Virus record (IMG/VR): IMGVR_UViG_3300032116_001009
Coordinates: 1 to 28,868 of that record
Strand: one strand, 5' to 3'
Origin: a virus
DNA: 28,868 nucleotides
Shown here: positions 2,108 to 28,011 of the stretch, piece after piece
Layout of the letters: each line of letters opens with the position of its first letter
How positions within the stretch are numbered: position 1 is the first letter of the stretch
Translations under genes and position numbers: made by a program
The notes under the pieces: model-generated
What the model saw: only the letters and a program-made list of their open reading frames with translations
Told to the model about the DNA's origin: nothing
Databases searched by the model: none

Positions 2108-3406
2108 ATGCCTTCCTGGCACGATACTGTCCTCAGCCGTCCTGCCGCCGAGCGCCCGCTCCGCGATGTCGGGGCGTCGGTGGATTACTCGCTGATCAAT
2201 AGCCCGGAGCAGCTCGGGCAGGCGTTGCGCATGGGCTCCGAATCGGCGGCCGGCGCGAGCGTCACGCCCGACAGTGCGATCCGGGTGGCGGCGGTCTATC
2301 GCTGCGTGGATCTGCGGGCCTCGGCGCTGGCCTGTCTGCCCGTGCATGTGATCGGCGAGGGGGCGGATGGCCAGGTCGGCCGCAAGGTGCCGGGGCATCC
2401 GCTCTCGCGCTTGCTGGGCAGCCGGCCGAACCGCCGCCACACGAGCTACGAGTTCCGGCGCCTGCTGGGCGCGCATGTGCTGCTGCGCGGCAATGGCTAC
2501 GCGCTGAAGGTGCGCTCCGGCCGCCGCATCCTCGAGCTGCTGCCGCTGCACCCCGATCGCGTGCGGGTGGAGGAGATGCCGGACCTTTCCATCCGGTACC
2601 ACTACACGCGCAAAGACGGCGCGGTGACGATCTTCGACCAGTCGGACATCTTCCACCTCCGCGACCTCTCGACCGATGGCGTGGTGGGGCATTCCAAGAT
2701 CGCGCTGATGCGCGAGGCGGTGGGCGTGGCGCTGCAGGCCGAGCGGTTCGGCGCGCGCATGTTCCGCAACGGCATGGGGGTTGGTGGTGCGCTGAAGCAC
2801 CCCGGGCGGCTGGGCGATGCGTCCTATGACCGGCTGCGGGCGGACATGGAAAGCCGCTACGCGGGCGCCGACAACGCGCACCGCTGGATGATCCTCGAAG
2901 AGAACATGTCGATCGAGAAGCTGGGCATGACCAGCGAGGACATGCAGTTCCTCGACAGCCGGAAATTCCAGCGCAGCGAGATCGCCATGTTCTTCGGCGT
3001 GCCGCCGCACCTCATCGGCGATGTCGAGAAGACCACCAGCTGGGGCAGCGGCATCGAGCAGCAGAACCTCGGCTTCCTGCAGTACACGCTCGGCGGCGAC
3101 GTGCAGATGTGGGAGCAGGCCATAGAGCGCGACCTGGTGGCCGAGGCCGAGGCCCCGCGCATCTACGTCAAGCTGAACGTCTCCGGCTTCCTGCGCGCCG
3201 CCGCGAAGGACCGCGCCGAGTACTTCAGCCGTGCCCTGGGCGCCGGCGGCTCGCCGGCCTGGATGACGCAGAACGAGGTCCGCGCGCTGGACGATCTGCC
3301 GCCGGTCCCGGGCGGCGATGAACTGCCCAAGCCGGCGAATACGGCACAGCCCGCGGCGCCTTCGCCGCCAGAGCCGCCGCCCGAGGAAGGAGCCGCGACC
3401 CAATGA
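2108..3406 (+). CDS. HK97-family phage portal protein
   Basis: Dodecameric ring at one capsid vertex through which DNA enters and leaves; 432 residues, typical for the HK97 portal family. Recognisable segments are SAIRVAAVYRCVDLRASALA near residues 57-76, the stem and crown region with FQRSEIAMFFGVPPHLIG (about 289-306), and the hallmark TTSWGSGIEQQNLGF that follows. The last 40 residues are Pro/Ala/Glu-rich and look disordered. It starts right behind TerL and its TGA stop overlaps the ATG of the protease gene (ATGA). Alternative functions are very unlikely. Confidence 0.95.
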   Translation: MPSWHDTVLSRPAAERPLRDVGASVDYSLINSPEQLGQALRMGSESAAGASVTPDSAIRVAAVYRCVDLRASALACLPVHVIGEGADGQVGRKVPGHPLSRLLGSRPNRRHTSYEFRRLLGAHVLLRGNGYALKVRSGRRILELLPLHPDRVRVEEMPDLSIRYHYTRKDGAVTIFDQSDIFHLRDLSTDGVVGHSKIALMREAVGVALQAERFGARMFRNGMGVGGALKHPGRLGDASYDRLRADMESRYAGADNAHRWMILEENMSIEKLGMTSEDMQFLDSRKFQRSEIAMFFGVPPHLIGDVEKTTSWGSGIEQQNLGFLQYTLGGDVQMWEQAIERDLVAEAEAPRIYVKLNVSGFLRAAAKDRAEYFSRALGAGGSPAWMTQNEVRALDDLPPVPGGDELPKPANTAQPAAPSPPEPPPEEGAATQ

Positions 3407-17613: not shown

Positions 17614-18977
17614 TGCTGTTCGATCCCGCTTTGGTCACGCCGGAGCTTGTGCTGCCGGCCTCGGCCGAGCTTGGCGGCCCGCTGGTGCGGCGCGTGCTGG
17701 CGCGCGGGCCGGCGCCGCGCGCGGCAGTGGTGCTGGCCACGCTGCGCGTGCGCGCCACCGCCGCCAGCGCGCTCGCCCCGCCGCGTGCGCTGATTGCGCC
17801 GGACTCGCTCGGTGTAAACGTCGCAGTCACGCGCGCGCACACGCCCACGACCGCAACCACGGTGCAGCAGGACGCGGCGGGTGCATGGGTTGAGGTCGGG
17901 CAGAATTTGCCTCGCTGGTCATCGCCGCTGCGGCGGCTGCGCGTAGACCCAAGCCGGACGAATGGTGTCCGCAACCCGCGTGGCGAAGGGTTGGTCGCCG
18001 GCACCTCCGGCACCCTGCCCACGAATTGGAGCAGCAGCACCACGGCAAGCGGCATCACTCGCAGCGTGGTTGGTTACGAGACAATCAACGGTGTGTCTTG
18101 TGTCGTGCTGCGCTTCGCCGGCACGGCCAGCGCAACGGCAGCCTTGCCCGTGCTGCTTGAGCCAGCGGCCATCATCGCCGCGACGGTTGGGCAGGTCTTC
18201 GCCGTCTCGGCATTGGTAAGGGCGACGCATCTCGGCGCAACGCCCGGCGTCCGGCTTTTGGTGCGAGAGGTGCCGACCGGCACCGACTTTGCGCAGACAA
18301 TCGATGCGACAACAACCGCGCAGCGGTTCGGCGTGCTGCACACCGTGGCCGGGGCCAGCAACACCAGTATCCGCCCCGGCCTCTCGGTGGGTTTCGCGAA
18401 TGGCCAAGTGATCGACAGCACTATTGCCGTCGGCCTGTTCCAGTGTGAGCTGGGCGGCTACGCGACGTTGCCGATCCTGCCGGTGGCGGCCTCGCCAGCC
18501 GCCACGACGCGCGCGGCGGATGCGCCGATCTGGACTCCCTCGGCCATGCCTGCCCGCGGCGCCATCCTGCTGCGCGGCTCATTCGCGGCGCTGGCGGGCG
18601 CCTCTCCGCTCGGTTTACTGCAGGCCGACGATGGCACCGACAGCAACCGCATCGTTGCGCGCGTGGCGGCCGGCGGCGGGCAGCCCGAGTGTCTCGTTAT
18701 CGCCAGCGGCGTGACGCTCGCCACGTTGACGCCGGTCGGTGTGCTTGCGCCGGGGGCGCAGTGGCGCGCGCTGCTTGCCTGGAGCCCCGGCGCCATCCGC
18801 TTCGGCACCTCCTCGGGCGGCGTCGTCACCGCCCCTGTTCCGCGTCCGCCAGGGCTATCGCGCGCGCTGCTTGGCCATGCGAACGCCGCCGGCACGCTGC
18901 CGCTGGCCGGTGAGATCATTGGCGATCTTTACGATGACTACCCGAGCGAAGCCGAGGCTCTTTCCCTCCTCGCCTGA
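17613..18977 (+). CDS. Tail fibre-like protein with carbohydrate-binding-type modules
   Basis: 454 residues from ATG 17613 (TGATG overlap with the previous stop); an alternative GTG lies one codon earlier. The opening LVTPELVLPASAELG repeats the N-terminal motif of the 15246-16811 protein, suggesting a shared docking element. A marker segment, SRTNGVRNPRGEGLVAGTSG then LPTNWSS (about 115-140), is typical of phage fibre proteins carrying a carbohydrate-binding-like domain. The C-terminal 150 residues (ARGAILLRGSFAALAGASPL onward, with WRALLAWSPGAIRFG) look like a concanavalin/LamG-type sandwich. The middle is visibly less GC-biased than the head genes, suggesting modular exchange. Confidence 0.65.
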   Translation: MLFDPALVTPELVLPASAELGGPLVRRVLARGPAPRAAVVLATLRVRATAASALAPPRALIAPDSLGVNVAVTRAHTPTTATTVQQDAAGAWVEVGQNLPRWSSPLRRLRVDPSRTNGVRNPRGEGLVAGTSGTLPTNWSSSTTASGITRSVVGYETINGVSCVVLRFAGTASATAALPVLLEPAAIIAATVGQVFAVSALVRATHLGATPGVRLLVREVPTGTDFAQTIDATTTAQRFGVLHTVAGASNTSIRPGLSVGFANGQVIDSTIAVGLFQCELGGYATLPILPVAASPAATTRAADAPIWTPSAMPARGAILLRGSFAALAGASPLGLLQADDGTDSNRIVARVAAGGGQPECLVIASGVTLATLTPVGVLAPGAQWRALLAWSPGAIRFGTSSGGVVTAPVPRPPGLSRALLGHANAAGTLPLAGEIIGDLYDDYPSEAEALSLLA

Positions 18978-18992
18978 TTCCGGAGCAACAGC

Positions 18993-21434
18993 ATGGCAAT
19001 CGTCGCGACGCTGCGTTTCGGCGCGGTCTATGATGTGCGCGCGCCCCGCTACAATCTCGGGGACAGCGTGACGGTCTGGGCGGATTTCCGCGACGACATC
19101 AGTGGCGCGCTCTCGGCTGCATCTGGCGTCGCCTTCGCTGTCGTGCGCGGAGACGGCACCACGGCTGCCGCGCCGTCTGTCGTGACCGAGGCGGCGGGGA
19201 TCTACCGCGCCACCTTCACACCCAACATCCCTGGCGTGTGGCAGGTGTCTGCTTCCGGCACGGTGATCGGGCTTGTGTCCACGATGCGCGAGCTTGCGGT
19301 GGCGGATCAGAGCGTCTCGCCAACCCTGTTTCCGCTCGCCGCGCCTGCCGCGCCGCTGCCGCCGATCGTGTGGAATGCCGTCGCCTACACGCCGCCATCC
19401 GGCTATGCGCGGTTGCTCAATACCAAGCTCACCGAGGTCGAGGTGTCGCTGCTCGACTTCGCCGCGGCGGGCGAGACGGACATCGCGCTGTGGCTGCGGC
19501 GCGCGCGCGATGCCGGCGCCTTCGGCGGGCAGCGGATCATCAGGATGCCGGAAGGCAACTTCACGCACAGCAGCATTGATCCGCTGGGGGCCGGCTACGG
19601 CTTCAACCTGACGGGCTACAGCAACTTCTGGCTGCGCGGTGCAGGACGCGGCGTGACGGTCATCCAGCCCGTGGCCGGAACGGATATGAGCCTGTTCCGG
19701 CTGAGTACGCTGAGCAATGCGCGTTTTTCGGATTTCACCTATGACGGCGACCGGGCAAACCAGACCATCCCTGACCCCACCCGGCCCAACAAGCACGGCA
19801 TCGGTATCTCCGCGCTGACCAATGTGCAGTTCCAGCGCCTGGATATCCTCAACGCCCAGGCTTACGGCATCGGGTTTCAGACGGGCAACTTTATCGATCT
19901 GACCGTTGAGGATGTGCGGATCATCGGCGCCGGCACGGATGGCATGGACATCAAGAACCCCGGCGGCCTCAACCGCAACATTCGCATTGAGGGCTGCTAC
20001 TTCGAAGACTGCGGCCGGGCCTCGACCACCGTTGCGAAAGCATGGTGCGATGTGCGCGGCGCGGGCACCACGGTTAGCAACTGCGTCTCGCGCCTGACCA
20101 GCGCGGCCATCACCGCCGCAAATCATGCGCTGTTCCGTGTGCGGCCGGACGATTCCTCGCTGATCACCTATGAAAACGCGACGGTGTTGCCTGAAGAAGA
20201 GGCGACGGTCACGGGCGTGACCAGCGGGGCCACGGCAGTCATCAATGCGCGCTCCGGTTCCTCGACCCTGGCTGTGGGTGGTATCAGCCTGCGCGATGTC
20301 GTCGGCACATTCACGGCAACCGAGCGCATCAATTTCAGCAGCGGCGGCTTCGGCTTCGTGCGCTCCTACTCGCCGCCGTCTGCGAATGGTGGCGGCGGCG
20401 CGGTGCTGATCGGCTGCCAGGCGCAAGGCCCGACCGATGGCGTGTCCGGTGTCGGCTTCGTGGTGCTGGATGAGGATGTGTCGCTGATCGCCCCGCGCGC
20501 CGCCGATGTGCGGACGGGCATCAGCGTGCAGACCGGCGGCATTCGCTCCAGCGTGGTTGCGCCATTCATCGCGCGCGCGGAGATCGGCATCGACTACCGC
20601 GCGGGCGGCGGGCGCTGCTTCGGCGGCAGCTTCACCGACATCACCGATGCGTCCATCGATATAGTGAGCGCCAACGACATCACCATCGATGCGCCGGCCA
20701 TTGCGGACAGCACGCGCGGCGTTCGGCGCAATGCGACCAGCCTCCGCACGCGCCTCACCAACCCGCAATTCTCCGCCGTCACCACGCCGCTGATCAATTT
20801 CGACTACGGCGACCAGCCCAGCACGCTGCCGCGTGTGTCGGGGCGTTCCGGTTCGCTGTTCTCGATCCTTCCAACCCCGAGCTATGCCACCGCCGCCGCG
20901 CTGGTCGGTGGGGCAGGCGGCGCGGCAAACAGCACGATCTACTTCTGCCCGATCCCGATCTTCGACCGCACCTCGATCCTGCGGCTCGGCCTGGTGATCG
21001 GGACCAGCACCGCCGCGACTTTGGGCAAACTGGCCTTGTATCGCGACATCGCCGGATCGCCGGCGGGCGGCAGCGCCTCCAACCTGATCGCCGAATGCAG
21101 CGGCACGGTGGATTTCAGCGGCACCGCAAACACGCAGATCCGCGTGAGCTTTGCCTCTGCCATCATCCTCGAGCCAGGCCTCTACTGGGGCGCTGTCGTC
21201 TGCAATGGCGGCGCTCGGCCTTACACGGTGCCTGTGACTGGCGCGATGGGCGAGTGGGCGCGCTTCGTCGGCATCAACAACGGCGCATCGATGTTTGCCG
21301 GGACAGGCGGGCAATGCCGCGTCAGTTCGACCTCGCTGGTCGATTACAACGCGGCCTTCCCCGCCATCGGCCCCGCTGTGGATTTCGCCACGACGACGCC
21401 GGGGTCGCCGTGGATCGGCGCATGGGAGGGTTGA
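18993..21434 (+). CDS. Tailspike protein with parallel beta-helix
   Basis: 813 residues, the last structural gene. An Ig-like N-terminal domain (about 1-110; GIYRATFTPNIPGVWQVSAS) precedes a linker and a pectate-lyase-like beta-helix from about residue 150. Short repeated turns are visible there (NFWLRGAGRGVTVIQPVAG, then RLSTLSNARFSDFTYDGDRA and RNIRIEGCYFEDCGRASTT), continuing to about residue 600. A C-terminal beta domain follows (FDRTSILRLGLVIGTSTAA; ILEPGLYWGAVVCNGG). Such spikes bind and often cut capsule, O-antigen or other surface glycans. Catalytic residues cannot be assigned from sequence alone. It probably sets host range. Confidence 0.8.
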   Translation: MAIVATLRFGAVYDVRAPRYNLGDSVTVWADFRDDISGALSAASGVAFAVVRGDGTTAAAPSVVTEAAGIYRATFTPNIPGVWQVSASGTVIGLVSTMRELAVADQSVSPTLFPLAAPAAPLPPIVWNAVAYTPPSGYARLLNTKLTEVEVSLLDFAAAGETDIALWLRRARDAGAFGGQRIIRMPEGNFTHSSIDPLGAGYGFNLTGYSNFWLRGAGRGVTVIQPVAGTDMSLFRLSTLSNARFSDFTYDGDRANQTIPDPTRPNKHGIGISALTNVQFQRLDILNAQAYGIGFQTGNFIDLTVEDVRIIGAGTDGMDIKNPGGLNRNIRIEGCYFEDCGRASTTVAKAWCDVRGAGTTVSNCVSRLTSAAITAANHALFRVRPDDSSLITYENATVLPEEEATVTGVTSGATAVINARSGSSTLAVGGISLRDVVGTFTATERINFSSGGFGFVRSYSPPSANGGGGAVLIGCQAQGPTDGVSGVGFVVLDEDVSLIAPRAADVRTGISVQTGGIRSSVVAPFIARAEIGIDYRAGGGRCFGGSFTDITDASIDIVSANDITIDAPAIADSTRGVRRNATSLRTRLTNPQFSAVTTPLINFDYGDQPSTLPRVSGRSGSLFSILPTPSYATAAALVGGAGGAANSTIYFCPIPIFDRTSILRLGLVIGTSTAATLGKLALYRDIAGSPAGGSASNLIAECSGTVDFSGTANTQIRVSFASAIILEPGLYWGAVVCNGGARPYTVPVTGAMGEWARFVGINNGASMFAGTGGQCRVSSTSLVDYNAAFPAIGPAVDFATTTPGSPWIGAWEG

Positions 21435-21436
21435 GC

Positions 21437-21739
21437 GTGAGCGACGATCTGGGCGAGGCCGCGCGCATGGCGGCGATTGCGGGCGGCATGGGCGGCGCCG
21501 CCCGGGTGCTGGTGGCGATGCAGGGCGGCGGCCGGCGTCTGCCGCTGCTCGCGCTCGATTTCGGCCTGGGCGGCATGCTCGGGATTGTCGCGGCCGGCAT
21601 GGCCGTGTGGTGGGATCCCTCGCTGCGGGAGATGGGCTACCCGGTGCTGATCGTCGCCGCCGCGGCCGGCGCTGCCGGGGCCATCGGCACGCGCATCCTC
21701 GACCTGTTGGTTGAGGCGATCCGCCGCCGATTGGCCTGA
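21437..21739 (+). CDS. Putative holin / small phage membrane protein
   Basis: 100 residues from GTG 21437, two bases after the tailspike stop; the longer upstream frame is a shadow of the spike gene. Two strongly hydrophobic segments are visible: LPLLALDFGLGGMLGIVAAG (about 35-54, running on to AVWW) and LIVAAAAGAAGAIGTRILDL (about 72-91). A short acidic N-terminus (SDDLGEAARMA) precedes them and a basic C-terminus (EAIRRRLA) follows, a typical holin charge pattern. The endolysin gene lies two genes downstream. The holin call rests on size, topology and context. Confidence 0.6.
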   Translation: MSDDLGEAARMAAIAGGMGGAARVLVAMQGGGRRLPLLALDFGLGGMLGIVAAGMAVWWDPSLREMGYPVLIVAAAAGAAGAIGTRILDLLVEAIRRRLA

Positions 21740-21779
21740 GACCCTCGCGGCGCGCATCCCCAAACCGCGCAGCGAGGTA

Positions 21780-21807
21780 GGCGGGCGCCGGCCAGGCCGC
21801 GCCCGCC
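21780..21807 (+). promoter_or_regulatory. Intergenic RNA hairpin before the second lysis-region gene
   Basis: GGCGGGCGC (21780-21788) pairs exactly with GCGCCCGCC (21799-21807) around a 10-base loop. It lies in the 120-base gap 21740-21859, in which I see no gene. No T run follows. It could shield or separate the downstream lysis messages. Confidence 0.4.
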
Positions 21808-21859
21808 GCCGAATCCCGCGCCGCCCGGCATGGCGGCCTCATCACGACAGGAGACGACG

Positions 21860-22204
21860 ATGGACGAGGTGTGGAGCGCGCTTGGCGTGCTGCTGGCCAC
21901 GCTGCTGGCGGAACTCGCCCGGCGGGGCCTCGCGGTGCTGCGCAAGGCGGAGGATCGCCAGACCGTGGTCGGCGCCGCCGCCCGTGCCGCCGGCCAGGCC
22001 GTGGTGGCGCTGCGTGAGAACCCGGCCGCGGCTGCCGCAACTGATGCGCTGGTGCGGCAGGGTGCCGCCTATGTGACCGCCGCCGCCCCGGCCGCGCTGG
22101 GCCGCCTGGGTGTGCCGGCTGCGGTGGTCGAGGGCATGGTGCGCGGCGAGCTGGGGCGCCTGCTGGCGCAGCCCATGGTGCCGCCGGTGGAGCCGCGGCG
22201 GTGA
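21860..22204 (+). CDS. Small protein of the lysis region, possible LLH-type holin or accessory
   Basis: 114 residues from ATG 21860, preceded by AGGAGA (21848-21853); this ribosome-binding site decides the start over an upstream in-frame ATG at 21830. A short N-terminal hydrophobic helix (VWSALGVLLATLLAELA) is followed by basic and alanine-rich helices (RTVVGAAARAAGQAVVAL-like region, then AAYVTAAAPAALGRLGVPAA). One N-terminal membrane helix plus a helical tail is the architecture of LLH-family holins. It overlaps the endolysin start by 4 bases (GTGA). It could equally be an accessory or anti-holin to the 21437 product. Confidence 0.5.
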   Translation: MDEVWSALGVLLATLLAELARRGLAVLRKAEDRQTVVGAAARAAGQAVVALRENPAAAAATDALVRQGAAYVTAAAPAALGRLGVPAAVVEGMVRGELGRLLAQPMVPPVEPRR

Positions 22205-22815: not shown

Positions 22816-22848
22816 AAGCCCCGCCAGCGCGAGCCGGCGGGGCTTTTT
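22816..22848 (+). terminator. Rho-independent terminator of the late operon
   Basis: AAGCCCCGCC (22816-22825) and GGCGGGGCTT (22836-22845) form a perfect 10-pair stem with a 10-base loop, running into TTTTT (22844-22848). It lies 28 bases after the endolysin stop. This is the best intrinsic terminator in the window and marks the end of rightward late transcription. Confidence 0.9.
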
Positions 22849-22869
22849 GCGTTCTGGCACCGGATCGAA

Positions 22870-22880
22870 GGTTAGCAACC
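22870..22880 (-). repeat. GGTTAGC element, copy 1 (arm-type/operator-like)
   Basis: GGTTAGCAACC. Its GGTTAGC is the exact reverse complement of the GCTAACC at 22985-22991 and 23603-23609. Including flanks, AAGGTTAGCAA matches the reverse complement of TCGCTAACCTA at 9 of 11 positions. Candidate integrase arm site or repressor operator. Confidence 0.5.
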
Positions 22881-22919
22881 CGGCCTGATCTTCGATGATT
22901 CTGCCGTAGTGTCGAATTC

Positions 22920-22979
22920 GCGCACCACCCGGCCTATGGCATTGGCGCGCATAGGAAACCGCGTTCCCTCCGGGTGCGC
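22920..22979. repeat. Nested inverted repeats, candidate recombination core
   Basis: Outer arms GCGCAC (22920-22925) and CCGG (22929-22932) pair with CCGG (22970-22973) and GTGCGC (22974-22979), leaving a 3-base bulge. Directly inside, CCTATG (22933-22938) and CATAGG (22950-22955) form a second dyad with an 11-base centre. A 23-base dyad of this kind has the size of a tyrosine-recombinase core site. Whether it is the core is inferred. Confidence 0.4.
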
Positions 22980-22982
22980 CAG

Positions 22983-22993
22983 TCGCTAACCTA
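22983..22993 (+). repeat. TCGCTAACCTA direct repeat, copy 2
   Basis: Eleven bases identical to 23601-23611, 618 bases away on the other side of the GIY-YIG gene. Both copies continue into a GCG-containing tail (AAGCG here, GCGC there). Possible integrase arm site, operator, or mark of insertion of the nuclease gene. Confidence 0.6.
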
Positions 22994-23028
22994 AGCGGCA
23001 TTTTCGCCTTGTTTTGCAATCGCTTAGG
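22990..23028 (-). repeat. Inverted repeat downstream of the GIY-YIG gene
   Basis: CCTAAGCG (22990-22997) and CGCTTAGG (23021-23028) are exact reverse complements around 23 bases containing two TTTT tracts. It lies 12 bases past the leftward stop at 23040. It could end leftward transcription weakly, though no U-run follows it in that direction, or be part of attP. Confidence 0.4.
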
Positions 23029-23039
23029 GCGCCGGAAAT

Positions 23040-23543
23040 CTAGTCCGCGTCGGACCCCTCGGTCGGGTTTGCGAACCCCTTGTCCTTTTTGTTCTCAACC
23101 GGGGCCAGCTGGCGGATGAGAAGCCGCTCCAAAGTGACGCGCTGGCGACCCTCGATGAATATGTAGTGCGCCCGATCGAACTGCCGGCCGTTCATCCGGT
23201 GACTGTCTATCCGCCGCGCGCAGTTCTTGCTCTGCCCGACGTAAGTGACCTTGCCGCCTCGGATGAGCAGATAGACGCCCTCGTCAGCCATCGTCTCCCT
23301 GACGGCTTCCTTCAGCCGCGCGAGGCTCCACGCCTTTGCGTCGTTCTGAGGGCGGCGCTGCTTTCGCAGCATCTCGCCCGGCGAGTTCATGGCCTCTCGA
23401 TACTCATCGCGGAACTGATCGGTTCCCACTGGAGCCCGTAGCCGGATCGCTGCTCTCCCAGGCACGCGGAGGTAAACTCTCTGCTGGCCATGCCTGTCAC
23501 GATACATGTGGCAGTAGCGATACCGAACGCCGTTCAAATCCAT
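23040..23543 (-). CDS. GIY-YIG nuclease-like protein with an integrase-type N-terminal segment
   Basis: 167 residues. The C-terminal half is a GIY-YIG domain: G89-V90-Y91 and Y101-V102-G103 form the two signature strands, with R111, H115, metal-binding-type E139 (TLERLLIRQL) and N151 following at fitting distances. Residues about 11-52 (HMYRDRHGQQRVYLRVPGRA then AIRL) are about 50% identical over 42 positions to the N-terminus of the adjacent integrase. The two genes differ clearly at the DNA level and this one is less GC-rich. It has its own probable promoter, 66 bases from the integrase stop, and lies between TCGCTAACCTA repeats. It may be a homing-type or site-targeted nuclease. Unlike typical free-standing GIY-YIG proteins it carries a likely DNA-binding front. 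Activity and target are unknown. Confidence 0.85.
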   Translation of the reverse strand: MDLNGVRYRYCHMYRDRHGQQRVYLRVPGRAAIRLRAPVGTDQFRDEYREAMNSPGEMLRKQRRPQNDAKAWSLARLKEAVRETMADEGVYLLIRGGKVTYVGQSKNCARRIDSHRMNGRQFDRAHYIFIEGRQRVTLERLLIRQLAPVENKKDKGFANPTEGSDAD

Positions 23544-23570
23544 GTGGATACGCCCCGAAAGTGAGGCGTC

Positions 23571-23599
23571 ACTATAGCAACGAAAGGCCGCGTTAGCAA
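23571..23599 (-). promoter_or_regulatory. Sigma70-like promoter for the GIY-YIG gene with overlapping palindrome
   Basis: On the minus strand TTGCTA (23599-23594) is followed after exactly 17 bases by TATAGT (23576-23571), giving 4/6 and 5/6 matches to -35 and -10. The start codon is 28 bases beyond the -10. The -35 lies inside the dyad GTTAGC-N5-GCTAAC (23592-23608), so a protein bound there would block the promoter. Confidence 0.6.
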
Positions 23600-23611
23600 T
23601 TCGCTAACCTA
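23592..23611. repeat. GTTAGC/GCTAAC dyad containing TCGCTAACCTA copy 3
   Basis: GTTAGC (23592-23597) and GCTAAC (23603-23608) are exact inverted repeats 5 bases apart. The right half belongs to TCGCTAACCTA (23601-23611), whose last three bases are the complement of the integrase stop codon. Operator-like or arm-type site overlapping the GIY-YIG promoter. Confidence 0.55.
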
Positions 23612-24637
23612 GCGCTTGATCCGCGACATGGCCGTCTCGGCCATCGCGCGCTGCTCGGCCTCGCGGGTGTATCGCTGCACCTCGGCCAGGGTGCGGTGGC
23701 CGCTGATCGCCATGATCTGGCTGGCGGTGCAGCCCGCCTCGGCCAGGCGGCGGCAGGCGGCCTTGCGGAGGCCGTGCGGGCTCAGGCCGGCCGGCAGCCC
23801 GGCCTCGCCACACCAGCCGATGAACCGCATGTAGAACCCGTTCGGGCTGTAGGGCTTTCCGCCCGGCGTGAGCAGGAAGGAAAGCTGGCCTTCGGGTATC
23901 TGCGCAAGCTCCGCGGCGAGCTGCGGGTGCACCGGGATGTCGAGCCGGGCGGCCGTCTTCTGCTGCGTCACCTTCAGCCATCCGCCGGCCAGGTGCTGGC
24001 GCCCCATGCGAACCACGTCGCTGCGGCGCTGGGCGGTATAGAGCAGCAGCGCGAAGGCGAGGCGGGGCTTGCTGCCGCTCGGCCAGCGCGCCTCGAACTG
24101 CGTGATCTGCGCCTCGGTCCAGGTGGCGATGCTGCCCTCGCGGTAGGCGACGCGGGCCACGTCCCGGCTGGGATCGTCCTCGCGGAGCCCCGTGGCGATC
24201 GCGTGCTGCATGAGGGCGCGGAGCATCCGGCGCCTATGGTTCGCTGCGGCCGGGGCGGTGCCGGCGTCCTGGGCGACGATGGCGCGCAGGTGCTTCGCCT
24301 CCATCATGGCGGCGGGCAGGTGGCCATAGGCCGCGCGGAGCCGCTCGAGGATGCGCCGATAGGTGCGTTGCGAGGATGGGCTGAGAGCTGCCCAGGCGGC
24401 CGAGGCGTAGTAGCTGGCGGCAAGGGCGTCCAGGCTGCCTGGCGCGGCGTGGCGCGGCGGCAGGCGCGGGCCGGGCGCCTTCGCCGGACCGCTCAGCCCC
24501 GCCTGATAGGCGGCCAGGAACTCGGCGCTGCCCGGTTCGCCCGGCAGGCGGATCGCGGCGCGGCCGGGGATGCGCAGGTAGTGGCGCCGGCGGCCGTGGC
24601 GGTCGGTGTAGCTGTGGACGTGCTTAAGCCGGACCAT
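23609..24637 (-). CDS. int: Tyrosine-type phage integrase
   Basis: Site-specific recombinase for integration and excision; 342 residues from ATG 24637. A longer reading starts at 24709, but its extra 24 residues are proline-rich shadow of the Xis-like gene, while 24637 aligns with the N-terminus of the GIY-YIG protein. Residues 1-50 form a beta-rich segment (YTDRHGRRRHYLRIPGRAAI), probably arm-site binding. A helical core-binding domain (about 65-160) and the catalytic domain follow. Catalytic residues visible are R204 (TAQRRSD), K227, H288 and R291 (SPHGLRKAA), H314 (SGHRTL) and nucleophile Y323 (VQRYT). It overlaps the HTH gene by 14 bases, the usual int-xis coupling. Confidence 0.95.
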   Translation of the reverse strand: MVRLKHVHSYTDRHGRRRHYLRIPGRAAIRLPGEPGSAEFLAAYQAGLSGPAKAPGPRLPPRHAAPGSLDALAASYYASAAWAALSPSSQRTYRRILERLRAAYGHLPAAMMEAKHLRAIVAQDAGTAPAAANHRRRMLRALMQHAIATGLREDDPSRDVARVAYREGSIATWTEAQITQFEARWPSGSKPRLAFALLLYTAQRRSDVVRMGRQHLAGGWLKVTQQKTAARLDIPVHPQLAAELAQIPEGQLSFLLTPGGKPYSPNGFYMRFIGWCGEAGLPAGLSPHGLRKAACRRLAEAGCTASQIMAISGHRTLAEVQRYTREAEQRAMAETAMSRIKR

Positions 24638-24884
24638 TGCCACTGAAGATGCTGTCCCAGGGGTTGGCGCCCGGGGTGGAGGCTGCGGTGCCGGCGGTCT
24701 GCTCGTCAACCCAGCGGTCGAGCGCGCGCCGATCCCAGCCGACGCGGCCGGGGCTGAGGCGTATGGCGGCCGGCGCTTTGCCGTCCGCGACCAAGCGGGC
24801 GAAGGTGGCGGTGCTGATGCTGAGGTAGGCCGCGGCGAGGTCCTGGGAAAGCACGCGCGGCCAGGCGGGGAGGGTGTCAGGCAT
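24624..24884 (-). CDS. AlpA/excisionase-like small HTH protein
   Basis: 86 residues from ATG 24884, chosen over an ATG at 24911 because a strong AGGGAGG ribosome-binding site (24893-24899 on the minus strand) lies just before it. The sequence fits a MerR-like winged helix of the AlpA/Xis type: VLSQDLAAAYLSISTATFAR for the helix-turn-helix, then LVADGKAPAAIRL and the wing PGRVGWDRRALDRWVDEQ. Such proteins bend att DNA and direct excision, or regulate int. Its position immediately before and overlapping int supports excision control. The last 20 residues look disordered. Confidence 0.82.
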   Translation of the reverse strand: MPDTLPAWPRVLSQDLAAAYLSISTATFARLVADGKAPAAIRLSPGRVGWDRRALDRWVDEQTAGTAASTPGANPWDSIFSGNGPA

Positions 24885-25137
24885 CGCGCCGCCTCCCTGA
24901 AATCGGGTCATAGCCGGCAGCCGCGACGCGCGTGATCACGTCACCCAAGACGCCGGGGAGGATCGCGCCTGTGGCGTCGAATGCGTCGGGGCACAGACGC
25001 CGCCACAGGGCTGCTCTGGCGGCATCCTGGCGCTCCGGCACGCACAAGCCTGCCTCCCCCGCGAGGCATCCATCAGGCGGGGCGCCAAGCCAGATGGGCG
25101 CGTGCTTGCCGCAGACTGGACAGGTCGCGCCGGTCAC
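24877..25137 (-). CDS. Small cysteine-containing protein of unknown function
   Basis: 86 residues starting at GTG 25137, which overlaps the nuclease stop as GTGA; the long reading upstream is a shadow with arginine/proline-rich nonsense. The start reads (V/M)TGATCPVCGKHAPIWLG, with CxxC at residues 6-9 and further cysteines at 24 and 32, a possible zinc ribbon. The rest is helical (AARAALWRRLCPDAFD, GVLGDVITRVAAAGYDP). It ends in ISGRRRDA, overlapping the Xis-like gene by 8 bases. Coupling to its neighbours and composition support a real gene; I do not recognise the family. Confidence 0.65.
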   Translation of the reverse strand: MTGATCPVCGKHAPIWLGAPPDGCLAGEAGLCVPERQDAARAALWRRLCPDAFDATGAILPGVLGDVITRVAAAGYDPISGRRRDA

Positions 25138-25523: not shown

Positions 25524-26467
25524 GCGGGCACCCCATCGTGTAGTATGCCGTCGAGCAGTCGGCCGGCGGCCTTCTTGCCCACGCGATACATCCCGCCGGG
25601 CGGCGGACCCTGCTCGATGCACTTCAGGTCGAGATCGTAGGCATCTTCTTCGGGGATCCACTCGCCCCATTGCTTGAACAGGAACGGCACGCCGGCGTCG
25701 GCGCACTGTTCCCGCAAGCTGCGGTGCCAGTCGGGATGCGAGGGGCGGGCGCCGGCGCCGGATTCGCCGCCGGAAATGACCCAATCAATGCTTGCCGAAA
25801 GCGCCTCGGGCCCTTCGCAGCACCCTTCGCACATGACTGATCCGGCCAGCGCGTCGAGGCGCGGGGAATGCTTGATGCAGTCGCAGCGTGGCCAGTCGTC
25901 CCCGGCGGGCCATGCTATCCGCGTCAGGTCCACCGGCCCGAGCAGCGGCTCGCAGGACAGGAAGCGCTTCGCCGCCGGCACCGACAGCAGATGCGGGATG
26001 CGGCGGTTCGCTTCGGCCTGGTTCTCGACCGTGGTGCCGAGCCAGACGTTGGGCCAGCCCGCGCCCCATGGCTTGGTGCCTGTGCGCGCGTCCGGCAGCA
26101 TCTCCTCGATGTTCTGCGGGCGCTTGGTCAGCAGAAGCCAATCAAGGTGCGGGGTGTTCTCGATGTAGTGCCAAAGATCCTCGCGCCAGCGCGACGGCAC
26201 CTGGTTGTCGAACACGTCCGCGAGGCTAGCGCAGAACACGCGGTAGCGTCGGCCCTCGCGCTCGGCCTTGCGGTTCCACGCAAGGGGCTGGCGCCAGGTG
26301 CTCTCCGCAGTGCGGCGCCGATCGGCATGGGGTCCCCAGGCTACGCCGAGGCGATTGGTGGCCAGCGCCTCGGCATAGCAATGATCGCAGCCGGGGCTCA
26401 CCTTCGTGCAGCCGATCCACGGGTTGAAGGTGTGGTCAGCCCATTCGATCTTCGTGTTCGCGGTCAT
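25520..26467 (-). CDS. Phage Gp37/Gp68 family protein (DUF5131), radical-SAM-like
   Basis: 315 residues from ATG 26467, which overlaps the methyltransferase stop (ATGA); the longer reading upstream is a shadow. The N-terminus TKIEWADHTFNPWIGCTKVS leads to a CX6CX2C cluster (C20, C27, C30; PGCDHCYAE). Later come LLLTKRPQNIEEMLPD, NVWLGTTVENQAEANRRI, KRFLSCEPLLGPVDL and WVISGGESGAGARPSHPDW, all hallmarks of the Gp37/Gp68 family, whose biochemistry is not settled. An extra cysteine cluster (CDC ... CEGCC) lies between the last two. It is coupled to a C5-methyltransferase, so a nucleic-acid modification role is plausible. Confidence 0.9.
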   Translation of the reverse strand: MTANTKIEWADHTFNPWIGCTKVSPGCDHCYAEALATNRLGVAWGPHADRRRTAESTWRQPLAWNRKAEREGRRYRVFCASLADVFDNQVPSRWREDLWHYIENTPHLDWLLLTKRPQNIEEMLPDARTGTKPWGAGWPNVWLGTTVENQAEANRRIPHLLSVPAAKRFLSCEPLLGPVDLTRIAWPAGDDWPRCDCIKHSPRLDALAGSVMCEGCCEGPEALSASIDWVISGGESGAGARPSHPDWHRSLREQCADAGVPFLFKQWGEWIPEEDAYDLDLKCIEQGPPPGGMYRVGKKAAGRLLDGILHDGVPA

Positions 26468-28011
26468 GCCGCCATCCTTCTCGGCTCGCGTTTCAGATTG
26501 GCGCGCAGCAGCGCGGTGGCGGGCGGCGGGGAGACGCTGTTGCCGATCAACCGGATGATCCTCGTCTTGCCCAGCGGCGCGCCGTCCGGGCCCGTCCAGA
26601 GATAGTCGCCCGGCAGGCCCTGCGCCGCCGCCAGTTCGCGCCAGTGCAGCATCCGCATGCCGATGTCGGTGATGACGTGCGGCACGCCGGCGACCGTCAC
26701 CAGGGCGAAACGCTCCTTCGTGGTCGCGGTGCCGAGCGGCTGATCCAGGCGCTGCCCGATGTTGGTGCCGTTGTAGCGCAGCAGGAAGGCGGCCACGCGC
26801 TCGGCGCCCTCGGCCTCGGCGGGGGACAGCGTGGCGGTGACCAGCTGCTGGTGGCTGCCGGCGGTCATGATGGTGGAGACGGGGCGCCGTGCGGAGTGCC
26901 CGACCACGCCGGTGTTGTGCTGCGCCAGGAAGGCGGCGACCACGGCGTGGTGGTGCGTCCCTGCCATCACCGTGCCCAGCGGCTTGTCCAGACCCGGCAC
27001 GCGGGGCGCCTGGCCTTCGCGCTCGCCGTAGCCGACCTGGATCAGCGTCGGGGCGACCAAGCCGAATCTGGCCGCTCCGGCCATGACTGTGTGGGTCGGC
27101 TCGGTCACGGGTTGGCCGACGCTGTTCTGCTGAAACTTGGTCAGCACTGGCGCGATCAGCGCATGCTCTCCGCGGTTCGCGCAGGTGATGGTCGGCATCG
27201 GCTCGCCCATGCCGCGTCCCCGAAATCCGCCGGTGTGCGTGATCGAGACGATGAACGGCTCGGCCGCCTCCAGCACGAAGCGGCGCACGCCGTGGGCAAT
27301 CCGCGCCTGCGTCTTGTCGGCCAGCTCCTTGCCGCGCGCGAAGATGCTGGGGCAGGGGATCGACCAGTCGATGCACTCCGCCGCCGTGCGCCAGGGCGCC
27401 TCGAACATGCTCGGCCTGCGGCTGTGCGTCGGCTGCGGCCAGGTGATCGGCTCACCATCGCAGCGCGCCACGATGAACAGCCGGGTTCGGGTGGTGGGCG
27501 CGCCGAAGTCGGCGGCGCAGAGCTGCCGCCACTCGACCGTGTAGCCCAGCCCGCGCAGTCGCCCGCACCACGCCTTGAAGCTCCGGCCGATGCGATCGGG
27601 GCAAGGCTGGCCGTTCGGCAGCAGCGGCCCCCAGCCCTCCATCTCGGCCACGTTCTCGACGCAGATGATGCGCGGGCGGACGCGCGTGGCCCAGGTGATC
27701 ACCACGCCGGGCAGGGCTCGCACCGACTTCCAGCGCGCCGCGCCGCCGCTCGCCCTCGAGAAGTGCCGGCAATCCGGCGAGGCCCAGAGCAGCCCGACCG
27801 CGCGACCCGCGCAGGCCTCGCGCGGCTCCACCTTCCAGATGCTGGCCTGGGCGTGGCGCGTCGTCGGGTGATTCGCGGTGTGGACGGCGATGGCCGTCTC
27901 GTCATGGTTCACGGCGAGATCGGGATGCCGCCCCGTCGCGGCGAGGATGGCGCAGGACGCGCCACCGCCGCCGGCGAAGAGGTCCACGATCATCTCATGC
28001 GGATGGATCAC
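26464..28011 (-). CDS. DNA (cytosine-5) methyltransferase
   Basis: Methylates cytosine in DNA at C5 with S-adenosylmethionine; 515 residues from GTG 28011 (GTGA overlap), or from ATG 27993. Motif I is DLFAGGGGAS (residues 10-19). Motif IV is ASPDCRHFSRASGG with nucleophile C81, where PDC replaces the usual PPC. Motif VI is ENV (119-121), motif VIII TRTRLFIVARCDG and motif X LIGNSVSPPPATALL. The region about 265-440, where the target-recognition domain lies, is built of repeated units marked EPMPTIT, EPTHTVM, KPLGTVM, RPVSTIM and QPLGTAT. No restriction enzyme is seen next to it, so it is probably an anti-restriction or regulatory orphan enzyme. Confidence 0.93.
   Translation of the reverse strand: MIHPHEMIVDLFAGGGGASCAILAATGRHPDLAVNHDETAIAVHTANHPTTRHAQASIWKVEPREACAGRAVGLLWASPDCRHFSRASGGAARWKSVRALPGVVITWATRVRPRIICVENVAEMEGWGPLLPNGQPCPDRIGRSFKAWCGRLRGLGYTVEWRQLCAADFGAPTTRTRLFIVARCDGEPITWPQPTHSRRPSMFEAPWRTAAECIDWSIPCPSIFARGKELADKTQARIAHGVRRFVLEAAEPFIVSITHTGGFRGRGMGEPMPTITCANRGEHALIAPVLTKFQQNSVGQPVTEPTHTVMAGAARFGLVAPTLIQVGYGEREGQAPRVPGLDKPLGTVMAGTHHHAVVAAFLAQHNTGVVGHSARRPVSTIMTAGSHQQLVTATLSPAEAEGAERVAAFLLRYNGTNIGQRLDQPLGTATTKERFALVTVAGVPHVITDIGMRMLHWRELAAAQGLPGDYLWTGPDGAPLGKTRIIRLIGNSVSPPPATALLRANLKREPRRMAA

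Follow-up and report, generated by a model that had tools for sequence, protein, structure and literature searches.

A small GIY-YIG nuclease encoded beside the tyrosine integrase of a tailed phage carries an N-terminal domain of the same family as the N-terminus of that integrase, and the recurrence of such matched pairs across three classes of arm domain suggests a recurring and as yet undescribed means of directing nucleases to viral insertion sites. The window, by which we mean the whole stretch of DNA analysed here, is a virus record of 28,868 bases; it is assigned to a tailed phage because it holds terminase, portal, head protease, major head and minor tail protein genes, and an endolysin gene is also present. 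An AlpA-like HTH gene, a tyrosine integrase gene and the gene for the GIY-YIG protein make up its integration module (22.8-24.9 kb, minus strand). The nuclease (167 aa; 23040-23543, minus strand), assigned from Pfam, Foldseek and its catalytic residues, joins an integrase-type N-terminal domain (residues 6-54; 23382-23528, minus), recognised by BLASTP, profile and model, to a GIY-YIG catalytic domain (residues 86-155; 23079-23288, minus) delimited from the alignments of relatives and the model. The integrase (342 aa counted from ATG; 23609-24637, minus) matches Pfam Phage_integrase (4e-16) and the PHROG integrase family (5e-36), and the best solved match of its model in Foldseek is full-length lambda Int (E = 7.5e-14, 338 columns); R204, H288, R291 and H314 are conserved, and the ATG at 24637 suffices as its start, a longer TTG start at 24709 being unnecessary. 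Its N-terminal arm-type domain (residues 2-50; 24488-24634, minus) was defined from the model and from conservation in integrases. Directly upstream of int, the AlpA/excisionase-like HTH protein (24624-24911, minus) matches PHROG excisionase and transcriptional regulator families at 2e-8, together with Pfam HTH_17 (7e-5) and AlpA (5e-3), both below cut-off. A candidate attP region, about 190 non-coding, AT-richer bases (22846-23039; 58% GC) between the nuclease stop and the endolysin terminator, was designated by position and composition rather than by an identified att core. Elsewhere in the window, a DNA methyltransferase gene recognised by a PHROG match (26464-28011, minus) may protect the phage's own sites, and a 1,061-codon open frame (18855-22040, minus) runs antisense to the late genes and is most likely a by-product of the 70% GC.

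The likeness between the two N-termini, to which the earlier note had drawn attention, is real. BLASTP aligned nuclease residues 6-69 with integrase residues 2-65 without gaps (E = 5e-14; 26 of 64 positions identical, 40 of 64 positive), and this was the sole significant segment, the proteins being unrelated outside their N-termini as that note had held. Its count of 21 identities in 42 positions agrees with the 23 in 49 obtained over the core residues, and its placement of the two genes at 23040-24637 proved correct. The score of the domain pair stands 21 standard deviations above the shuffled-sequence mean, and the nuclease domain matches an integrase-only profile at E = 3e-15. The common domain spans about 50 residues and is predicted to be beta-beta-beta-alpha in both proteins: the AlphaFold model of the nuclease places strands at 11-15, 21-25 and 33-35 and a helix at 42-53 (pLDDT about 92), and that of the integrase places strands at 7-11, 17-21 and 29-31 and a helix at 38-49, the two predicted layouts being offset by exactly four residues. 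Different folds, which the earlier note had named as an outcome that would count against it, were not seen at this level, the comparison being one of predicted secondary structure rather than of superposed coordinates. The integrase model has an N-terminal three-stranded sheet and helix before a lambda-type core, and the nuclease layout is the same; as modelled, the nuclease domain is thus laid out and placed like an integrase arm-binding domain. A structural-library search with the nuclease model also brought up an entry named 'Integrase family protein', at 32% identity across 50 columns (E = 0.05, prob 1.00). Neither window protein matched the curated Arm-DNA-bind models of Pfam.

The catalytic part of the nuclease matches the Pfam GIY-YIG model at E = 3e-4 (score 21.4, slightly below the cut-off of 22.6), and the solved structures closest to its model in Foldseek belong to UvrC GIY-YIG domains (E = 5.6e-4, prob 1.0), with the core modelled at pLDDT about 95. 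Features of the GIY-YIG superfamily are present in the protein: the two motifs that give the superfamily its name, the conserved Tyr, Arg, Glu and Asn, and the predicted GIY-YIG fold. Y91, Y101, R111, H115, E139 and N151 vary little or not at all among its relatives. Judged by these residues, the active site is intact. The only PADLOC matches, to PDC-S14 and UzuA across the GIY-YIG part, were partial and weak.

Attachment-like repeats lie around the nuclease gene. GCTAACC occurs four times in the window against 0.73 expected, a count attained in 0 of 100 shuffles, and the occurrences at 22870, 22985 and 23603 fall within about 740 bases, on either side of the gene; the six-base core GCTAAC occurs five times in the window, four of them in this nuclease-flanking zone. 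The candidate arm-type repeat GCTAACCT is found twice in the candidate attP region (22869-22876, minus; 22985-22992, plus) and once overlapping the int stop codon (23603-23610, plus), and a candidate half repeat, GCTAAC, stands upstream of the nuclease start (23592-23597, minus). Within the non-coding intervals 22846-23039 and 23544-23611 combined, an eight-base motif seen three times was attained in 6 of 500 shuffles and the six-base GCTAAC count in 59 of 500; because the motif was picked after looking, the GCTAAC(CT) repeats are candidates only. Among other loci with related nucleases, L079 shows the order tRNA-Met (407-485), TTACGCAA repeats, nuclease and integrase, L128 has tandem CTTTAC[GA]GCGG repeats directly after the nuclease stop, and L021, L017 and L048 have weak repeats only. 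The nuclease gene thus sits among att-like repeats in three inspected loci: the window, L128 and L079.

The domain is the standard N-terminus of an integrase family, termed RHG here, found in phages phi2LM21, Rivra and Pam5 and in Mesorhizobium and Shinella, and it is kept at integrase starts in rhizobial phages and in genome-encoded integrases. Compared with the adjacent integrase and with 20 other integrase loci, the nuclease domain gives its highest score, 124, with its neighbour; the best of the others reaches 112. A few otherwise rare residues are common to the nuclease domain and its neighbour. The earlier note's description of a copy of the neighbouring integrase's domain was nevertheless too strong, given that the identity of 23/49 to the neighbour is equalled by that to the integrases of L161, L162 and L156 and that GC3 is 67% in the nuclease's domain versus 92% in the integrase's. 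Identity and GC rule out a recent duplication of the integrase N-terminus; as far as alignment and composition tell, the nuclease domain belongs to the integrase-domain family and is only slightly closer to its neighbour than to other members.

The fusion of an RHG domain to GIY-YIG turned up once only, in the window. Across 583 genomes (the class of G120 and the family of G116), the RHG domain was found only in integrase-sized ORFs of 345-520 residues, and a search of these genomes for a second fusion gave just integrase-sized ORFs and UvrC; a degenerate DNA pattern for the fusion, narrow in that it required the codon CAC for His18, which is CAT in the window, found no match in viral contigs. 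RHG-integrase loci fetched from genomes had no such nuclease nearby. Scans with the nuclease or the integrase alone as query were empty, in viral as in genome contigs, because such scans recover close relatives only. No close relative of the window phage appeared in the viral and genome contig scans, no empty-site relative was found, and an alignment-based genome scan returned one locus, which served as the starting point for the whole-genome search. Two further observations concern this integrase family. On the Mesorhizobium plasmid pMLb (L007, 2968-4121), an RHG-type integrase is seemingly broken into pieces, its N-terminal domain being annotated as a separate 71-aa protein; and in two rhizobial phages with RHG-type integrases, phi2LM21 and Rivra, a gene for an HNH endonuclease (L004:1834-2211 and L005:1878-2216) lies directly upstream of the AlpA-like and int genes.

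The matching of nuclease and integrase domains recurs beyond the window. A profile-guided scan of IMG/VR with the GIY-YIG part gave relatives with many different N-terminal regions, and among 76 non-redundant relatives, eight carry an integrase-type N-terminal domain and 68 are without an arm-type domain. A tyrosine integrase adjoins seven of these eight nucleases, and in every one of the seven linked pairs the arm class is the same in the nuclease and its own integrase: RHG in the window, lambda-Int Arm-DNA-bind_1 in L021 and L128, and AP2-like in L017, L048, L079 and L181, where 'AP2-like' is a label taken from the sequence pattern and some integrases match Pfam Arm-DNA-bind_4 only weakly. 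An integrase was present in the fetched flank of 7/8 arm-type nucleases versus 18/68 other relatives (Fisher p = 1.4e-3), and a class match of 7/7 was attained in 1 of 200,000 shuffles, a value that treats related cases as independent, because pairs within a class may share ancestry. The nucleases of L021 and L128 score 22.0 and 23.4 against PF09003, the lambda Int arm domain (cut-off 22), and their adjoining integrases match it at E = 1e-11 and 7e-10. The nuclease N-termini of L017, L048, L079 and L181, all adjoined by AP2-like integrases, match integrase-N-terminus-only profiles at E = 2e-7 to 4e-16; the AP2 and lambda integrase profiles contain the integrases of the tested pairs themselves. 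The true pairing has the top total score within its class (1 of 24 for AP2, 1 of 2 for lambda), and the own integrase outscores the domains of other nucleases in L017, L079, L181, L021 and L128, but not in L048. That own-pair similarity mostly exceeds nuclease-nuclease similarity suggests that the correspondence has been retained or repeatedly renewed. The three classes require at least three captures, unless the classes are one diverged family; the AP2 class, judged by sequence, may have a single origin, and the best tree of the GIY-YIG domain (67 columns, too few to count origins) scatters the arm classes. In L021, L128, L079, L048 and L189, the nuclease and int genes follow each other head to tail with an overlap or a near-overlap, which suggests co-expression.

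The prospect, raised in the earlier note, of a generic module occurring far from integrases was largely dispelled by this linkage and by the confinement of the RHG-domain hits in the 583 genomes to integrase-sized ORFs. The exception, L015, is a weak AP2-like match on the Methylovorus plasmid pMsip01, of which about 2.5 kb of flank was read. The L015 protein (2291-3199) has a weak AP2-like N-terminus, a GIY-YIG middle and a LuxR-type HTH C-terminus, is annotated merely as a LuxR-related regulator, and precedes SOS peptidase-like, umuD and umuC genes. A final viral scan yielded no additional pair. The interpretation put forward in that note is partly supported, by the arm-type layout, the intact active site and the recurrence, and has to part with a recent copy of the integrase domain; a nuclease that would share the DNA sites of the integrase, cut att or arm DNA, compete with Int or home is putative.

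Other domains of the integration module are likewise fused to GIY-YIG. An AlpA-type HTH precedes it in L020 (3656-4273), L109 (3599-4321) and L064 (3518-4255), with an integrase in each locus, and DUF4224, whose function is unassigned in Pfam, precedes it in L067 (1455-1934), L116 (3809-4285) and L236 (1201-1893), each with an adjoining tyrosine integrase. Sinorhizobium phage NV1.1.1 encodes, beside its integrase, a GIY-YIG domain preceded by an HTH-like N-terminus whose match to HTH_17 is not significant (E = 0.06). The AlpA and DUF4224 fusions hint, suggestively only, at a role as recombination directionality factor. In L183 and L189 (4695-5261), a GIY-YIG gene without an arm-type domain overlaps the start of the integrase frame.

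We give an even chance to the proposal that the gene product is an integration-site-directed GIY-YIG nuclease, Odn- or homing-like, aimed at the arm-type DNA of related elements. This proposal draws on the observed domain identity, predicted secondary structure, catalytic residues, int linkage, three-class recurrence and repeats; the DNA binding, cleavage, target and outcome described next are what we infer. The arm-class N-terminal domain would deliver the nuclease's C-terminal part to the arm-type DNA that surrounds attachment sites, and the GIY-YIG domain there would nick or cut this DNA. The most likely targets would be related phages or prophages with similar arm sites that do not carry the nuclease gene. 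The outcome could be exclusion, the cut att/int region being lost, or homing of the free-standing kind, in which the cut would be repaired from the nuclease-bearing genome and the nuclease copied together with its int-att neighbourhood. The site specificity of the nuclease may differ from that of Int, because the domain is equally identical to other integrases, and descent and class in common with the integrase, as read from sequence, do not prove a common specificity. Self-targeting is the main difficulty: the integrase and candidate arm sites are in the nuclease's own genome, and cutting them would harm the phage, a problem that diverged specificity, modification or timing could solve. Counted against an att-directed reading are the 68 of 76 relatives without an arm domain, the single RHG fusion and the post hoc choice of the repeats. 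More broadly, and tentatively, as a possibility to which we attach less than an even chance, the integration module of temperate phages may have, besides integrase and excisionase, a dedicated third component in att-directed nucleases, with a domain repeatedly acquired from, and kept matched to, the integrase or excisionase that they accompany, policing att sites against rival phages or controlling the phage's own integration.

A different role, which we consider rather unlikely, is that of a regulator of the phage's own integration and excision, occupying sites as Xis or a truncated Int might, with GIY-YIG nicking att so that re-integration is blocked, or serving in binding only. Such a role would accord with the int-adjacent relatives that carry AlpA or DUF4224, which are domains of other integrase-adjacent proteins, with the head-to-tail arrangement of nuclease and int, and with the candidate repeats in the nuclease's own upstream region. 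However, the catalytic residues are retained throughout, which is unexpected for a pure regulator, an AlpA-like protein is already present in the window, and the nuclease appears dispensable because the RHG-integrase loci from genomes do without it. Similarly doubtful is an ordinary phage homing endonuclease that captured its DNA-binding domain next door and whose present target is unrelated to att. Homing endonucleases with AP2 domains are known (AP2-HNH; PMC10448857), the GIY-YIG clade is modular and comes with a variety of N-terminal regions, and adjacency alone eases the capture of a domain from int; yet even in diverged pairs the class match is to the integrase that now adjoins the nuclease, and a similarity that is mostly greater within pairs than between nucleases fits a single forgotten capture less well. 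Chance resemblance or an annotation artefact, which the shortness of the domain (about 50 residues) might invite, has a negligible probability and is refuted by E = 5e-14, by the 21 standard deviations over shuffles and by the recurrence in other phages, where curated Pfam models back it.

Should the nuclease be aimed at arm sites, as the att-directed proposal holds, attachment sites would be a phage-phage battleground, as replication origins are for Odn; nucleases adjoining integrases would be explained, and a source of sequence-directed nucleases with sites readable from the att region would become available. The three-class recurrence leads to a testable prediction, namely that the nuclease and integrase of each pair recognise the same or related motifs. 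A search of open-access papers brought up Odn and AP2-HNH and no description of an integrase-matched nuclease; the words integrase, AP2 and AlpA are absent from a 2006 survey of GIY-YIG nucleases, and integrase arm domains do not come up in the available sections of a 2023 study on nuclease genes of phages, which treat AP2-HNH and RepA_N.

Among known systems, the free-standing GIY-YIG homing endonucleases of the Seg/I-TevI type share with the window protein the catalytic domain, the phage location, a modular binding part and sporadic occurrence, but have NUMOD, zinc-finger or HTH parts, and the portions of the reports available mention no matched integrase arm domain (PMC2988022, PMC1564403). 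The AP2-HNH homing endonucleases likewise combine an AP2-like DNA-binding domain with a nuclease domain; their nuclease is HNH, however, their AP2 domain is C-terminal, and the available part of the source describes no pairing with an integrase (PMC10448857). The Arm-DNA-bind domains (PF09003, PF14657) belong to the recombinase, whereas here such a domain belongs to a nuclease; the nucleases of L021 and L128 score at or above the PF09003 cut-off, and the predicted layout of the window domain is similar. Odn (ICP1 Gp88) has been demonstrated to be a chimeric nuclease; its N-terminus shares 42% identity with RepA_N of the satellite PLE1, and the enzyme is directed to the satellite's origin (PMC8263062). 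The window protein resembles it by analogy, as a GIY-YIG-superfamily nuclease with an N-terminal DNA-binding domain like that of another protein; Odn differs in joining the replication-initiator domain of a parasite to a T5orf172 nuclease domain (PMC8263062). In the window nuclease, whose cleavage is putative, an integrase arm-type domain takes the place of RepA_N, so that the likeness to an Odn-type fusion is one of analogy only, and the integrase that it resembles is the product of the adjacent gene in the same genome.
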